Assembly: GCA_002746215.1 (NCBI GenBank)
Contig: NVWI01000001.1
Span: 570,376 to 616,276 of the forward strand
Length of the DNA: 45,901 nucleotides
Origin: SAR86 cluster bacterium
GTDB taxonomy: Bacteria > Pseudomonadota > Gammaproteobacteria > Pseudomonadales > Pseudohongiellaceae
Reading direction: 5' to 3'
A model generated the notes under the pieces. That model saw only the letters and a list, made by a program, of their open reading frames with translations. It made no database searches and was not told where the DNA came from. The position numbers were made by a program, and so were the translations under genes. Below are positions 2,875 through 35,683 of this stretch, piece by piece. Position 1 is the first letter of the stretch. Each line of letters starts with the position of its first letter.

Positions 2875-2877
2875 TTT

Positions 2878-3000
2878 TAGGCCTGCTGCGCTCGGCTATC
2901 CTTCGTTAAAAGTTTTTCCCAAAACGGTCACTTACTGATCGTAAGCTCCCGCCTCTGGGAAAAACTTTTGCCTCGACTAGCCTTCGCTCGCTACGGCCTT
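2878..3000. repeat. Palindromic repeat, copy A, with self-complementary variable stem
   Basis: Directly follows the stop codon of the DsbA-like gene. The left stem at 2908-2921 (AAAAGTTTTTCCCA) pairs perfectly over 14 bases with 2956-2969. Between them lies a conserved centre, GTCACTTAC-5 nt-GTAAGCTCC, itself a small hairpin. Outside the stem are conserved flanks resembling CGTTAA on the left and TTGCCTCG then TTCGCTC on the right. Copies B and C (34633-34755, 34757-34877) share flanks and centre but have different stems. Confidence 0.8.
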
Positions 3001-3042
3001 GGAATATAACGTTAATTGGCGATTAGGTTTCAGGTGGAGTTT

Positions 3043-3624
3043 ATGGAATGGAATTCTTTTGGGTCATCTATCACAGGAGCTATAGTCGGTGGATTAATTA
3101 CTGGCTTATTTGCCTTGATGGCTGTTCGTCATTCTTTTGATAACCAAAGGCAGCAATCTGAAGAAAACGAAGAAAAAATTATAAAAGGGTTGCTGCAAGC
3201 TATCTATGATGAGATTGAAACAGTTTTTGATAGATACCAAGAAACAATGGGGGCTTATTTAGATAGTCTTCAGCCTGATCAGGCTCTTCTTATGTACTAT
3301 CCTATTGTAAGTGATTTTTTTACTGTTTATAACGGGAATAGTTCTTTGATTGGCCGAGTTCCTGATCATGATTTAAGAAAGCAAATTATTAAGACATATA
3401 CCTTATCTAAAGGTATGGTTGACTCCTTCAGAATGAATAATGATTTAGTTTCAAGATACGAATTTTCAGAAAAGCTATATGCAGAAACAAATCTTGAAGT
3501 GCATAAAAATCATGCTGTTGCCCATTACGCTAATCTTGTTACGTATGCTGCTTCATTAAAAGAATCTCATAAAGCCCTCCAGCAAGAAGTGAGTGTTTTA
3601 CTGCAAGAATTAAGAAGAAATTAA
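3043..3624 (+). CDS. Single-pass membrane protein with coiled-coil cytoplasmic part, unknown function
   Basis: About 193 aa from the ATG at 3043, which has a GGTGGAG ribosome site 4-10 bases upstream; a longer frame would need a TTG at 3016. Residues about 5-28 are a glycine-rich hydrophobic helix (SSITGAIVGGLITGLFALM). The rest is soluble and helical, with a charged coiled-coil-like stretch right after the membrane and another at the C-terminus. No enzymatic motif is visible and I do not recognise a named family. It opens an AT-rich stretch with a short YidC-like gene and a PaiB gene, behind palindromic repeat copy A, which suggests an accessory patch. Base use looks more AT-rich than the flanking housekeeping genes. 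Confidence 0.6.
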   Translation: MEWNSFGSSITGAIVGGLITGLFALMAVRHSFDNQRQQSEENEEKIIKGLLQAIYDEIETVFDRYQETMGAYLDSLQPDQALLMYYPIVSDFFTVYNGNSSLIGRVPDHDLRKQIIKTYTLSKGMVDSFRMNNDLVSRYEFSEKLYAETNLEVHKNHAVAHYANLVTYAASLKESHKALQQEVSVLLQELRRN

Positions 3625-3706
3625 AAGCGTCAAAGTAAATCACAGAAATGAAACCAAAAGGGTCAGAGTAACCTGATCATAAGTTTTTTAAAATTTGGAG
3701 ATAAAT

Positions 3707-4360
3707 ATGGAACTTTGGGCAATATGGACAAATTTTTTAGCGAGTTGTATTGATTTCTTTGCTTTGCAATTTGGGCTTACTGAAGCAGTCTCAATAATAC
3801 TGTTGACCTTGGTTATAAGAATTCTGCTTTTTCCACTTTCCTACAACACGGCATACAACTCACAGAAAAATAAAATTGCTATGGAAAAGCTAAAGCCTGA
3901 ACTAGACGTAATTAAAGAGAAATATGCTGATCAGCCAAGTGAAGTAATGCAGAAAACTATGTCTCTTTATAAGGAAAATGGTATTAAGATATTTTCTAAA
4001 TTTACGGCTCTTAACTTGGTATTTCAAATCTTCTTTGGGCTAGGGACTTACCAAGCTATAAGAAATACAACATTAAATTCTAAATTTTTGTGGATTTCTA
4101 ATATTGCGAACCCGGATCTATTGCTTGCGATACTTGTTGGGGTATTAACGTATATAAGCATGGCGATGTTGCCAACTAACGCAGATCAAAATATGGAAAT
4201 ACTTTATTTGGTCCCGGTATTAATTGCAGTCTTTATGCTTATAAGTTTCCCATCAGCTCTTGGGCTGTACTGGGGAACCTCAACATTAGTCACTATAAGT
4301 CAGCAGGCAATTCTAAGATTTGTTTTTCTAAAGCAATCCCGCGAGCAGTCAAAAATATAG
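3707..4360 (+). CDS. Short YidC/Oxa1-family membrane insertase-like protein
   Basis: About 217 aa from the ATG at 3707, preceded by TTGGAG; a TTG at 3695 gives a slightly longer frame. The protein matches the 60KD_IMP/YidC core: a first transmembrane helix with the buried arginine (VIRILLFPLSY), a charged cytoplasmic hairpin (SQKNKIAMEKLKPELDVIKEKYAD), then several membrane helices with the late motif SALGLYWGTS. Canonical gammaproteobacterial YidC is about 550 aa, has a large periplasmic domain, and sits with rnpA/rpmH/mnmE. This one lacks that domain and locus, so it is a stand-alone paralogue resembling short Gram-positive or organellar forms. The family inserts and folds membrane proteins; its client here is unknown, and the small membrane protein just upstream is one possibility. 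Confidence 0.82.
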   Translation: MELWAIWTNFLASCIDFFALQFGLTEAVSIILLTLVIRILLFPLSYNTAYNSQKNKIAMEKLKPELDVIKEKYADQPSEVMQKTMSLYKENGIKIFSKFTALNLVFQIFFGLGTYQAIRNTTLNSKFLWISNIANPDLLLAILVGVLTYISMAMLPTNADQNMEILYLVPVLIAVFMLISFPSALGLYWGTSTLVTISQQAILRFVFLKQSREQSKI

Positions 4361-4470
4361 CTTATGCTCGGTGTCGGAGCCATGACTTCGACACCCTAAG
4401 GTTCGCTATCAGGTCAGTTTTAGAGCCGCACCAAATTACTTTGTATATTTTCAATGCCTCAAGGTAAAAC

Positions 4471-5064
4471 ATGTATATCCCGAAACACTTTGAAGTGACC
4501 GATAAAAATAAAGTTCTCTCATTTTTGAGAAAAAACGCTTTCGGTCAGTTAACTTCTATACTGGATGGAAAACTGTTTGCTTCACATATACCTTTTCTTA
4601 CCAGCACTGATGGCTCCATTCTTTTGGGTCATTTAGCCAAATCTAATCCGCAATGGGGAAGCATAGAGAATCAAGAAGTGCTAATCACTTTTCAAGGTTC
4701 GCATGATTATATTTCTCCTTCATGGTACAGCTCTCCAGGAGTGCCAACATGGAGCTATCAAACAGTTCATGTCTATGGAAATTGCACTGTAATTCATGAT
4801 TTAAAAGAATTAAAAAATATAGTGGATGAGCTGACTTCAACTTATGAATCACAATTTTATCAGCCTTGGATTCCTCAATATGATGAGAGAATGCTAAGAG
4901 GAATTGTAGGCATAAAAGTGCAAGTCACAGAGATACAATGCCAGTTTAAGTTAAATCAAAATTGTTCAGAAGCAGATCGAAAAGAAGTGATAAATCAGTT
5001 AGACGCAAAAGGGTCGGTTTCATTAGCTTCAGCAATGAAAGAAAATGAGTTTAACGAAGAGTAA
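4471..5064 (+). CDS. PaiB-family FMN-binding split-barrel protein / putative transcriptional regulator
   Basis: 197 aa. The start MYIPKHFEV, the segments ASHIPFL and HLAKSNPQW, and the central YISPSWYSSPGVPTW motif are typical of the PaiB family (FMN-binding split barrel, annotated as a negative regulator after Bacillus subtilis PaiB). The length is close to the family's usual 200-210 aa. PaiB-like proteins may bind FMN or haem; the actual activity in Gram-negatives is not established. The ATG at 4471 is preceded by AAGGTAAA. It is the last gene of the AT-rich accessory patch and converges on the lytic transglycosylase gene with only 32 bases between stops. Confidence 0.85.
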   Translation: MYIPKHFEVTDKNKVLSFLRKNAFGQLTSILDGKLFASHIPFLTSTDGSILLGHLAKSNPQWGSIENQEVLITFQGSHDYISPSWYSSPGVPTWSYQTVHVYGNCTVIHDLKELKNIVDELTSTYESQFYQPWIPQYDERMLRGIVGIKVQVTEIQCQFKLNQNCSEADRKEVINQLDAKGSVSLASAMKENEFNEE

Positions 5065-5096
5065 GCAAGCGCAGTAAGCAGGCTTAACCAAATAAA

Positions 5097-13934: not shown

Positions 13935-14402
13935 ATGCATTGTCCTTTTTGTCATGCTACAGATACTAAGGTAATCGATTCGCGCTTGGTCACCGAAGGT
14001 AATCAGGTGCGTCGGCGGCGTGAGTGCTTAACATGTAATGAGCGCTTCACGACCTTTGAAGGCGCTGAATTATTAATGCCACGAGTGATCAAACAAAATG
14101 GTGACAGGGAACCATTTAATGAAGATAAGTTGCGTAAAGGCATTTTAAAAGCGCTGGAAAAAAGACCCGTGAGTATGGATCAGGTTGAAGAAGCATTAAC
14201 GCATATTAATCATGCGTTACGTGCTTTAGGTGAACGAGAAGTTTCCAGTAATTTAGTCGGAGAGAAGGTAATGCAGGAATTACGTAAGCTGGATGAAGTT
14301 GCTTATGTACGTTTCGCTTCTGTCTATAGAAGCTTTAAAGATTTAAATGAGTTTAGAGAAGCAATTGATAGCATCGAAAAAACACCAAAAGATAAAGCCT
14401 AG
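13935..14402 (+). CDS. nrdR: Transcriptional repressor NrdR
   Basis: 155 aa, the usual length. The N-terminal zinc ribbon has Cys3, Cys6, Cys31 and Cys34 ([14 protein letters not shown]), and an ATP-cone follows at about 49-139. NrdR senses dATP/ATP and represses ribonucleotide reductase genes by binding NrdR boxes. It lies between glyA and ribD, the conserved location. No NrdR box was recognised in the window, so its targets are elsewhere. Confidence 0.97.
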
Positions 14403-33207: not shown

Positions 33208-34635
33208 ATGAAAGAGTATTTACAGTTCTATATTAATGGTGAATGGGTTGACCCGATAACACCGCGTCTACTGGATGTTATCGATCCAGCGACAGAAGAA
33301 GTTGCTGGGCATATTAATGTTGGTAGTGAAGCCGATGTAGATAAAGCCGTTGCAGCGGCAGCAGAGGCATTCAAAACCTGGTCGCAAACCAGCAAAGAAG
33401 AACGCTTACAAGTACTGAATCGGATTGTCGAAGAATTTGAAAAACGAGTGCCTGAGCTAGGTGAAGCTATTACCGAAGAAATGGGCGCGCCGACCTGGCT
33501 AGCAGAGGGGACACAGGCAGCGGTTGGCGTGAAGCATTTCCAAACCACTGTTGCTGTCTTAGAGCGTTTTGAATTTGAAACGGATCGCGGTAGTAGTCAT
33601 ATTAGCCGTGAACCAATCGGCGTCTGTGGGTTTATTACACCCTGGAACTGGCCGATTCATCAGATCTGCGCGAAGGTAGGGCCAGCATTGGCTGTGGGTT
33701 GTACAGTGGTGCTTAAACCCTCAGAAATTGCACCATTTTCTGCCAAGATATTTGCCGATATTATTCACGCTGCAGGTGTTCCAGCCGGTGTATTTAACCT
33801 GGTGCAGGGTGAAGGCCCTGAAGTCGGGCAAGCTATCGCCAAACATCCATTAGTTGATATGGTTTCAATCACTGGCTCAACTCGTGCTGGTATTGCCGTT
33901 GCACAAGCCGCGGCCCCTACGGTGAAACGTGTGCATCAGGAGCTAGGGGGTAAAAGCCCTAATATTGTTTTGGAAGATGCCGATCTTGAAGCGGCTGTAA
34001 CAGGCGGCATTAACGGCGTAATGATGAATTCAGGGCAATCCTGCCGCGCGCCAACGCGCATGTTAGTGCCAAATAAATTAATGGATCAGGTGAGTGCGAT
34101 TGCTAAAGATGTGGCAGAAAGCTGGACGCCTGGAGATCCAAAACAAGACAGTCGAATGGGGCCGGTTATTTCTGATCAAGCTTGGGAAAAGATACAAGGA
34201 TTAATTAAAAGCGGTGTTGAAGAAGGCGCGACTCTGGTTACTGGAGGAGAAGGCAAACCGGAAGGCCTGGAACAAGGTTATTTTATAAAACCAACGGTGT
34301 TTAGCCATGTGAAAAATGATATGAAAATCGCGCGTGAAGAAATCTTTGGCCCAGTGTTAAGTATTATTGGTTATGACACAGAGGAAGAAGCAATAGAAAT
34401 TGCTAACGATACTGAATATGGCTTGGGCGGTTATGTACAAAGCCAGGATATTGAACATGCTCGAAATATAGCGTCTAAAATTCGTGCCGGCTATATCAGT
34501 ATTAATAATGCGGGGCTGGATATTAGTGTGCCGTTTGGGGGATATAAACAATCGGGTAATGGACGGGAATTTGGTGATGAGGCCTTCGGCGAATTTCTGG
34601 AATACAAATCTCTTCTCGGCTATAACCCTTCTTAG
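33208..34635 (+). CDS. NAD(P)-dependent aldehyde dehydrogenase
   Basis: 475 aa, full ALDH fold. Catalytic residues are Asn147 (PWNWP), Glu245 (HQELGGKSP) and nucleophile Cys279 (NSGQSCRAPTR); the late motif EEIFGPVLSIIGYD is intact. The sequence type (ISREPIGVCGFITPWNWP, VPFGGYKQSGNGRE) resembles the broad-specificity aldehyde dehydrogenases near the CddD-like group, so the substrate is not certain. It should oxidise an aldehyde to its acid in the cytoplasm. AAAGCAGG precedes the ATG. Its TAG stop is the first codon of palindromic repeat copy B. It is not obviously in an operon. Confidence 0.93.
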   Translation: MKEYLQFYINGEWVDPITPRLLDVIDPATEEVAGHINVGSEADVDKAVAAAAEAFKTWSQTSKEERLQVLNRIVEEFEKRVPELGEAITEEMGAPTWLAEGTQAAVGVKHFQTTVAVLERFEFETDRGSSHISREPIGVCGFITPWNWPIHQICAKVGPALAVGCTVVLKPSEIAPFSAKIFADIIHAAGVPAGVFNLVQGEGPEVGQAIAKHPLVDMVSITGSTRAGIAVAQAAAPTVKRVHQELGGKSPNIVLEDADLEAAVTGGINGVMMNSGQSCRAPTRMLVPNKLMDQVSAIAKDVAESWTPGDPKQDSRMGPVISDQAWEKIQGLIKSGVEEGATLVTGGEGKPEGLEQGYFIKPTVFSHVKNDMKIAREEIFGPVLSIIGYDTEEEAIEIANDTEYGLGGYVQSQDIEHARNIASKIRAGYISINNAGLDISVPFGGYKQSGNGREFGDEAFGEFLEYKSLLGYNPS

Positions 34636-34755
34636 CTATTGCGCTTGCTAATACGTCGTTAAGGGAATAATTTGAATCAGTCACTTACAGTTTGTAAGCT
34701 CCTTCTCCAAATTATTTCCTTGCCTCGTCTTAGCTTCGCTCATTACACTAAGTAT
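34633..34755. repeat. Palindromic repeat, copy B
   Basis: Starts with the stop codon of the aldehyde dehydrogenase. The stem AAGGGAATAATTTG (34661-34674) pairs with 34708-34721 at 13 of 14 positions. The centre is GTCACTTAC-5 nt-GTAAGCTCC. The flanks (TAGCTATTGCGCTTGCTAAT and TTGCCTCGTCTTAGCTTCGC) are nearly identical to copy C, which follows directly. Confidence 0.88.
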
Positions 34756-34756
34756 T

Positions 34757-34877
34757 TAGCTATTGCGCTTGCTAATGCGTCGTTAAAAATAAAATTTTAA
34801 TCAGTCACTTACTCTTAAGTAAGCTCCTTCTTTAAATTTTATCTTTGCCTCGTCTTAGCTGCGTTGATTACGCTAAG
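34757..34877. repeat. Palindromic repeat, copy C, in tandem with copy B
   Basis: The stem AAAAATAAAATTTTAA (34785-34800) pairs with 34831-34846 at 14 of 16 positions. The centre GTCACTTACTCTTAAGTAAGCTCC has a 6-bp mini-stem. The flanks match copy B almost base for base while the stems are unrelated in sequence. Confidence 0.88.
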
Positions 34878-34921
34878 ATGCGATGTATAAAGAAAAATTT
34901 AAAAAATAAAATTAAAAAATT

Positions 34922-35683
34922 ATGACAGCAACAATATGCTTCACCATGGACAATCTTTCAGATGCCGCTGATTTAGGCAGGGGTGTGATTGATAAACCTA
35001 GACCGCCCGGTCAGCGACCTGCTTTAGAGCAGGGCTTTCCTGCCATGCTGAATCTTTATGATAGGTACGGAGTAAAAGTTACACATTTTCTGGAAGGCTG
35101 GAATGGTGAGGCGCATCCAGACATTGTTGAAGATTTGTTAAATATGGGGCATAGCGTTGGCATGCACGGCTGGCAGCATGAAGCCTGGTCAGAGCTGAGT
35201 TTGGAGCAGGAAATTGAATTAATGGGCAGATCAACTGATGCTTTACACCAGGCATCTGGGGTTAAGCCAACAGCTTTCAGAGCGCCGGGAGGTAAGCGTA
35301 CTAAACATACAGTCAAATTACTTTCTGATTTAGGCTATACGATTGATTCAAGTATGAATGATCAGGGTGAAGATGGCGGGGAAATTCAGGCGCTTACCGA
35401 GTCGCTTTGGCATGTCCCTTATTTAGAAGCCACCATAGACGCGCGGCAGTGGCTGCAAAAAAATATACCCGCAAAAGAAGTGGAATTATCCTGGCTGAAC
35501 TTGCTTGAACAAGCCCGTGAGAGAGATGGGTTCCTGGTGTTTATCTGGCACCCCCATGTTATGGGTATGAATGCAGAATATCAAAAAGTGGGAGAAAGTA
35601 TTCTGCAAAAAGTAACGAAAGAAAAAGATTTCCAGATTGTTACTTTGAAAGATTTAGTTTCTCATAAATTGGTAGAGCAATAA
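34922..35683 (+). CDS. Polysaccharide deacetylase (NodB) family protein
   Basis: 253 aa, no signal peptide seen, so probably cytoplasmic. NodB-type motifs: TMDN in place of TFDDG (metal Asp retained), HGWQHE for the H-x3-H metal pair, RAPGGKRTK for RxPxG, and a late HPHVMG for the LxH motif. The deviation TMDN and the missing secretion signal point to the subgroup acting on small or cytoplasmic N-acyl substrates rather than cell-wall polymer; this is inference. It follows the tandem palindromic repeats and converges on the DUF4156 lipoprotein gene with four bases between stops. Confidence 0.85.
   Translation: MTATICFTMDNLSDAADLGRGVIDKPRPPGQRPALEQGFPAMLNLYDRYGVKVTHFLEGWNGEAHPDIVEDLLNMGHSVGMHGWQHEAWSELSLEQEIELMGRSTDALHQASGVKPTAFRAPGGKRTKHTVKLLSDLGYTIDSSMNDQGEDGGEIQALTESLWHVPYLEATIDARQWLQKNIPAKEVELSWLNLLEQARERDGFLVFIWHPHVMGMNAEYQKVGESILQKVTKEKDFQIVTLKDLVSHKLVEQ

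Follow-up and report, generated by a model that had tools for sequence, protein, structure and literature searches.

ERIC elements (also termed IRU or RU-1) have been used in strain typing for decades, and their origin, their mobiliser and their role have stayed open. REP, BIME and REPIN sequences are extragenic palindromes near gene ends, and the attC sites of integrons lie behind a stop codon and combine variable paired stems with fixed extrahelical bases and a strand bias. A Yersinia palindromic sequence of ~168 bp, YPAL or RU-2, was reportedly described by De Gregorio in 2006 as inserted close behind stop codons. In the parts of PMC2229807, PMC2759123 and PMC10969869 that deal with its nature, ERIC is regarded as a miniature inverted-repeat transposable element (MITE) with TA duplication, and a passage of PMC2229807 that reports De Gregorio 2005 describes an orientation-dependent, destabilising effect of Yersinia ERIC on the upstream mRNA. 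Here we compare with these systems a family of hairpins from a stretch of 45,901 nucleotides of a SAR86 cluster bacterium (GenBank assembly GCA_002746215.1, contig NVWI01000001.1, positions 570,376 to 616,276; this whole stretch is called the window below). The family shares the ERIC core, lies behind stop codons and is probably an ancient gene-end element of an ERIC superfamily, with arms whose complementarity is maintained in the DNA.

Rods with an ERIC core

Three full-length members of one family of rod-shaped hairpins, 124-125 bp long, lie in the window. The matches given below are those of R1, a covariance model built from 27 marine copies (of the 28 then in hand; L017, with odd arms, was omitted), and their E values are those of training sequences, as all three copies belonged to the R1 training set:

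2877 to 3001, + strand: copy 1, ERIC-like rod (R1 match 2878-2998, E 5.3e-27; the terminal helix adds 1 base on the left and 3 on the right)
34630 to 34753, + strand: copy 2, ERIC-like rod (R1 match 34631-34750, E 2.3e-31)
34754 to 34878, + strand: copy 3, ERIC-like rod (R1 match 34755-34875, E 1.2e-29)

An earlier note, made from the letters of this DNA alone, had described these copies as a repeat family with conserved flanks and covarying stems. The family and its covariation were confirmed by the covariance model and by shuffled-partner counts (see below). Rechecking bore out the complementarity of the stems (14/14, 13/14 and 14/16) and the flanks CGTTAA and TTGCCTCG, which are present in all three copies. 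The other proposed right flank, TTAGC, occurs in copies 2 and 3, and copy 1 has CTAGCC; the 5-nt spacer in the centre holds for two copies, the third having 6 nt; and the bounds were extended to about those given above once the terminal helix was counted. With up to three mismatches allowed, the centre with the 5-nt spacer occurs twice in the window versus 0.03 times expected (the third copy having the longer spacer). Folding was more stable than in shuffled sequences for both strands of all three copies (z -3.3 to -9.1; a single shuffle of 200 equalled the real fold in one of the six cases).

The note knew no named family with exactly this design and missed a named relative: the family core, GTCACTTAC-N-GTAAGCTCC, is identical to the classical ERIC/IRU/RU-1 core. 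The E. coli ERIC/RU-1 consensus has the same core plus the motif pair CGTT / TTGCCGCC outside the first stem (PMC2759123, as far as its Table 1a), and the consensus of that paper matches 5376 of 5426 complete E. coli genomes, at a median of 13 places. A second covariance model, R2, was built from 29 ERICs (Enterobacterales, one Vibrio and one record titled Martelella alba, L044). In the window R2 matched copy 3 (E 1.9e-4) and copy 1 (E 3.6e-4), with no further match, and it gave 48 matches at E<=0.05 (best E 1.6e-12) in 48 clostridial, Arcobacter and Legionellales loci, all of them loci previously found by R1. Conversely, R1 matched enterobacterial copies over model positions 18-105 or over their full length with up to 42 bits, and clostridial copies with up to 62 bits at loci picked by their centre and up to 72 bits in whole-genome scans. 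Run on 100 of the at least 119 centre-picked loci, R1 reached E<=1 in 112 matches; matches of ~20-24 bits over the centre alone are uninformative, because the loci were chosen for that centre. The kinship of the window family with ERIC is firm.

Besides the core and the reciprocal model matches, the family shares with ERIC (127 bp) the CGTT x GCC loop, a single long stem-loop of ~125 bp, the intergenic and multicopy habit and a 7-bp terminal repeat (in the part of PMC2229807 that tabulates it, its length equals that of the terminal helix described below). It differs from ERIC in that the arms covary and have no conserved sequence of the kind of the TATACCC ends and the ACCCC/GGGG beside the core, that copies lie at stop codons and mostly in one orientation, that the outer loop is another one, and that the hosts lie outside the Enterobacteriaceae and Vibrionaceae, the range given in the relevant part of PMC10969869. 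Because the arm sequence and the orientation are not those of ERIC, the family is not ERIC in the strict sense: it is a member of an ERIC superfamily, not textbook ERIC. YPAL is likewise palindromic, intergenic and multicopy, but its sequence as printed in PMC2759123 is, by eye, without the GTCAC/GCTCC core, and it has no TA termini according to the passage on it in PMC2229807. Compared to REP, BIME and REPIN with their RAYT transposases, the element is several times longer, its arms covary and it has no tie to a Y1 transposase; unlike attC sites, it has housekeeping genes upstream. Rfam searches gave nothing relevant, neither at the gathering score over the whole window nor at E<=5 over 34600-34900 (one chance-level match). 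In the open-licence literature, which most subscription journals lie outside, no report of ERIC-type elements in Clostridia or Campylobacterota was found (including in the consulted parts of PMC2229807, PMC2759123, PMC10969869 and PMC2267715), nor were papers on ERIC-like elements with stop codons in Clostridia or on covarying palindromic repeats.

The family reaches dozens of copies per genome. The source assembly (G000; 3.13 Mb, 22 contigs) holds the exact centre at 11 places, compared to 0 for the reversed control; 8 of the 11 are distinct, because contigs C4 and C17 share the same three copies. The earlier note had named the finding of only these three copies as grounds for refutation; at E<=0.01, R1 gave 48 matches in the source assembly (model matches as scored, with the three window copies counted twice, on C4 and C17). 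At the same threshold 16 of 19 genomes were matched, four congeners with 30, 10, 25 and 28 matches. The relatives G008, G010 and G011 had zero matches, which supports the specificity of R1. At E<=1e-5 and with stricter filters, R1 matched 31 of 143 Gammaproteobacteria (the source assembly and others sampled evenly across the class), and at E<=0.001 it matched all 29 genomes that had been chosen for holding the centre, with 1 to 66 matches each. The exact centre was found in 10 of 57 genomes, the source included, and, with one genome taken for each of 84,980 species, in at least 119 stretches; among the matches listed are Enterobacterales, Vibrio, Pseudomonadales, Legionellales, Clostridia, Sulfurovum, Arcobacter, Oligoflexia, Bacteriovoracaceae and Planctomycetota. 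A further 26 stretches with the exact centre come from viral contigs.

Covarying arms, fixed loops and stop codons

The rod consists of four helices, namely a 7-bp terminal helix, helix 1, helix 2 (~15 bp) and a 5-bp tip helix, with conserved internal loops between them. In the marine branch the outer loop is CTATTGCGCT.. opposite ..TTCGCTCAT.ACG; the loop between helices 1 and 2 is CGTT x GCC(T)YG, and the loop between helix 2 and the tip helix is TCA x CTC. The tip helix is CTTAC/GTAAG in most copies (CTTGC/GCAAG, CTTAT/ATAAG and CATAC/GTATG were also found), and the tip measures 4 to 7 nt in the copies from the centre scan of 57 genomes. Sequence changes concentrate in the helices, the terminal one included, with pairing kept, and the internal loops are nearly fixed.

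In 28 centre-picked copies (L017 included), aligned by sequence alone (A1), 90.3% of the stem cells were paired compared to 71.6% with shuffled partners, and 157 cells carried double changes compared to 54.7, with no slid register coming near; the structure scored here was derived from that very alignment. Larger sets behaved similarly, in alignments (A4-A6) that were fitted to the model structure, which favours pairing: 89.8% versus 65.6% paired and 782 versus 219 double changes in 115 marine copies, and 86.3% versus 61.5% paired and 399 versus 144 double changes in 57 distinct clostridial copies, where the number of pair types (68) was no higher than in shuffles (70.2). When 25-27 nt on each side of the centre were compared, the best partner of the left arm was its own right arm in 17 of the 28 copies. 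In the terminal helix of the 115 copies, pairing by position was 0.93, 0.90, 0.90, 0.90, 0.88, 0.70 and 0.65 and then fell to chance, and the mean pairing score was 6.4, compared to a maximum of 4.1 among 2000 permutations. Independent variation of the two arms, a second outcome that the earlier note had held to be fatal, was not what we found, since pairing is kept in other copies.

Of 98 copies fetched from five genomes of the genus, 76 fall in 29 orthologous groups, and orthologous copies follow the genes for dCTP deaminase, Fur, IMP dehydrogenase, uroporphyrinogen decarboxylase and IscS, as well as genes recognised by eye as those for AceF and SecA. Over 72 ortholog pairs, 1126 stem positions were unchanged, 369 had changed on both sides and were still paired, 92 had changed on one side and were still paired, and 105 were gapped. 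Compensatory change thus occurs in place at orthologous sites.

The copies are also set at stop codons, a link that the note had drawn and that the counts across copies bore out. Copy 1 starts 2 nt past the TAG (2872-2874) of a gene for a DsbA-like thioredoxin-fold protein (2179-2874; named by eye, with no match in an NCBIfam search). Copy 2 supplies the stop of its upstream gene, as had been proposed: the TAG at 34633-34635 lies within its left terminal arm and ends an aldehyde dehydrogenase gene (33208-34635; matches to aldehyde dehydrogenase families, the displayed rows being under the family cut-offs). The start at or just after a stop codon, claimed for all three, therefore holds for copies 1 and 2; copy 3 directly adjoins copy 2 in the same orientation, with a stem of unrelated sequence and no gene stop of its own. 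In a symmetric test, which counts a stop codon if it ends an open frame of 100 codons or more and falls -8 to 25 nt from either element end, the stop lay at the left versus the right end in 87:5 of 114 marine copies, 37:6 of 79 in Clostridia, 12:0 of 18 in Campylobacterota and 23:14 of 77 in Enterobacterales plus Vibrio (a group that holds the record titled Martelella alba, L044). When related upstream sequences were merged into one, the counts were 47:4 of 61 (A4) and 24:3 of 47 (A5). Counts of orientation based on open reading frames (ORFs) for Clostridia (9:1 and 41:18) were dropped in favour of this test; they are unreliable because they depend on antisense ORFs in GC-rich DNA.

Among the 113 marine copies outside ORFs, the left neighbour was co-directional in 102 and opposed in 11; the corresponding count for Enterobacterales plus Vibrio was 36 versus 33. 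In 88 of the 102 co-directional cases the copy lay -10 to 40 nt from the stop of the left neighbour (median 1 nt), the stop being TAA in 42, TAG in 32 and TGA in 14. The register of stop to element was mostly -5 to +8, most often -2 (18 of the 88), where the outermost two positions of the terminal helix are the first two bases of the stop. A position after genes is also what ordinary intrinsic terminators would have, but the conserved loops do not fit them or chance palindromes, and no T-tract follows the 115 marine copies (T fraction 0.34 just past the end versus 0.33 farther on; TTTTT 7 versus 10). Nor was a terminator-like site found in 34500-35000. The absence of a T-tract contradicts the terminator reading, and we consider either of these explanations most improbable.

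Upkeep of the arms at the DNA or the RNA level

As causes of the pairing, the earlier note had offered either selection for a hairpin or copying that restores the second arm from the first, and these were the right two to weigh. An mRNA 3'-untranslated-region hairpin, selected as RNA and setting the stability or the 3' end of the upstream transcript, would agree with the sense orientation at stop codons in three groups, with the orthologous copies behind the dCTP deaminase, Fur, IMP dehydrogenase, uroporphyrinogen decarboxylase and IscS genes, and with the orientation-dependent effect of Yersinia ERIC on upstream mRNA (in the passage of PMC2229807 cited above). If the stems were selected in mRNA, G.U would be expected to outnumber A.C. 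With one conserved T.G pair excluded, we counted 95 G.T plus T.G and 108 A.C plus C.A (p 0.40), or by helix 18:38, 55:58, 10:6 and 12:6. A tRNA control (41 G.T versus 0 A.C in 33 tRNAs) carries little weight, because A.C pairs probably cannot be written in the bracket notation of ARAGORN. In the closest ortholog pair of each group, transversion-type double changes were as frequent as transition-type ones (42 and 44), and departures from pairing went to G.T in 37 cases and to A.C in 44.

Moreover, under RNA parameters 253 of 270 copies fold better on the strand opposite to that of the upstream gene (by group 100/115, 56/57, 9/9 and 88/89), which is odd for an mRNA element, and under DNA parameters 257 of 270 do so (105/115, 54/57, 9/9 and 89/89). 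The opposite strand is more stable because of the inner loop, which has pyrimidine-type mismatches on the gene strand and G.A-type mismatches on the other. Equal G.T and A.C, together with the better fold of the opposite strand, disfavour a simple mRNA hairpin, which we regard as unlikely. The strand advantage, seen in all four groups, could instead mean that the opposite strand acts, either as a DNA hairpin of the template strand or as an antisense RNA, with its purine loops (GAG x TGA) stacked as G.A pairs; the excess of A.C (38) over G.T (18) in helix 1 is what would be expected if G.U were tolerated on that strand. However, wobble counts over all helices favour neither strand, a consensus scan found no promoter-like site on either strand of 34500-35000, and the energy gap may just reflect the energy rules for purine loops. 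A role of the opposite strand therefore seems to us rather improbable.

On balance, the wobble and strand tests point to arms maintained as DNA rather than to selection on an mRNA hairpin. Our best reading is that the arms are kept complementary in DNA, through template switching or selection of a DNA hairpin, and that the loops are selected separately; something must hold the loop mismatches, because template switching alone would erase them. The family would have spread as a TA-flanked non-autonomous insertion and settled later. Each arm may be repeatedly re-templated from the other in replication (quasi-palindrome correction) or be selected as part of a DNA hairpin; either process would keep any stem sequence paired, with selection keeping the loops. 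The non-enterobacterial branches might act in cis at the 3' end of the upstream gene, where a putative cellular factor (a ribonuclease, a nucleoid factor or a termination factor) could read the loops once the ribosome leaves the stop codon, by analogy with the mRNA-destabilising role reported for Yersinia ERIC. In this view enterobacterial ERIC would be a branch in which the sequence stayed fixed and the orientation rule was lost. More tentatively, ERIC may be the orientation-free offshoot of an old cis-acting gene-end device of Pseudomonadota, Campylobacterota and Bacillota, a stop-anchored rod with purine-rich fixed loops on the template strand and re-templated arms.

Several observations weigh against this account of an ancient gene-end element, in addition to the dependence of the alignments on the structure scored. 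R2, the enterobacterial model, missed copy 2. The marine outer loop is unlike that of ERIC, and some Sulfurovum copies have a different second loop. The Legionellales are mostly without the stop rule (left:right 1:0 of 6). In the terminal helix the own partner was best or tied in only 16 of 115 copies (in the top tenth in 72 of 115), and the 72 ortholog pairs also show 224 one-sided and 100 two-sided breaks of pairing. TA ends are hardly marked (left 0.21 and right 0.19 at their expected position, with some other offsets similar); both ends are TA in 10 of 115 marine copies versus 4.6 expected. Of loci without the element, which the earlier note had proposed to look for, there was one clear case, a site filled in the source assembly with a 45.9-bit copy and empty in G003 and G004, and this site is too diverged to reveal a target duplication.

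A purely selfish, MITE-like element, with a transposase that recognises the fold through its loops and places the rod, in a strand-specific manner, at TA inside stop codons, with no benefit to the host, would be in line with the description of ERIC as a MITE with TA duplication (in the parts of PMC2229807, PMC10969869 and PMC2759123 named above). Congeners do differ in the presence of copies, and at five marine sites (L227, L234, L256, L262 and L314) copies stand in tandem on the same strand. But most fetched copies are old and orthologous (the 76 of 98 above), with loops and pairing preserved, the terminal repeats of the 115 marine copies have no common sequence, and no partner emerged from the two transposase families searched, IS630-type and Y1. 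An IS630-type mobiliser was rejected, as none of 19 relatives had a DDE_3 transposase over the cut-off and one had a match below it. A Y1/REP transposase was rejected because it showed no association with element counts, being absent from G001 (30 matches), G012 (7) and G041 (6) and present in G008 and G010 (0 matches each). We find the selfish reading doubtful.

If the gene-end reading holds, a superfamily that crosses phyla and, outside Enterobacterales, has a preferred place and direction at stop codons shifts the question from how ERIC hops to what happens at gene ends. What has to be recognised is delimited by the fixed loops and covarying arms, genomes in which the model has 30 to 66 matches are natural test beds, and the family is a rare dataset in which arm-by-arm DNA correction of palindromes can be told from RNA-level selection.

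Turnover, neighbouring features and side branches

At the sites behind the dsbA-like and aldehyde dehydrogenase genes, congeners carry full copies with other stems, half copies, an inverted copy, copies with internal deletions, or nothing. Deletion derivatives between the aldehyde dehydrogenase and deacetylase genes (L214, L216 and L217) consist of the left half alone, of fused outer arms without the central hairpin, or of a rod that has lost that hairpin alone; the outer arms are, in addition, similar to direct repeats, through which the loss could have come about. Further matches in the window and its relatives are:

5050 to 5079, - strand: remnant of an inverted copy, its left half; in the congener G003 the inverted copy at the matching site is complete (L233 15246-15367)
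14400 to 14514, + strand: possible decayed copy at the stop codon of an nrdR-like gene (13935-14402, named by eye); R1 19 bits, E 0.0065
L220:9250-9357, L230:11490-11608 and L245:3262-3381, strand unstated: R1 matches in a gap between hisB-like and hisH-like genes (ORF lists for the first two)

At the site of the possible decayed copy, the left part is absent in G003 and G004 and different in G001. The matches in the hisB-hisH gap (genes named by eye) have 30-38 bits without the ERIC core and occur in the source assembly, G003 and G004. They are unlikely to be coding false positives, since the ORF lists place the first two in a short intergenic gap at the hisB-like stop, and are probably degenerate copies kept at an orthologous stop codon.

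Copy 1 is separated from the remnant of the inverted copy by ~2 kb with three ORFs (3016-5064). In G003 the dsbA-like gene and a transglycosylase-like gene (both named by eye) are adjacent, and G004 and G001 look similar. The 3016-5064 block seems to have been inserted beside or into the repeats, because its flanking genes adjoin in G003. Close neighbours in opposite orientation were seen at L335, at G001:C9 near 193,000 and at G005:C23 near 16,100. A protein of 326-361 aa with a weak Y1-transposase match (G000:C17:168133-168462) is present in four of five genomes of the genus. Contigs C4 and C17 of the source assembly both carry the window elements with the same spacing, as duplicated or strain-redundant contigs of the bin would.

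Variants of the rod were also seen among other hosts. In four Sulfurovum loci (L052, L066, L114 and L125) the tip loop is kept and CATCTTT x AAATCT replaces the CGTT x GCC loop, perhaps marking a separate branch. Among the matches listed are ERICs of the enterobacterial type with another small hairpin sequence, ..GCGTTCAAATC..GATTTGTC.. or GTTACAAGG..CCTTG.., in place of one outer arm or both (L037, L063, L067, L111, L122, L123, L139, L147, L158 and L176; two come from viral contigs). In a Planctomycetota bin, two contigs (L078 and L144) have the exact ERIC centre and share the GC-rich flank to its left, in one case near the end of the stretch. In Candidatus Pantoea formicae (L062) at least four ERICs stand in tandem, ~128 bp apart and in one orientation.

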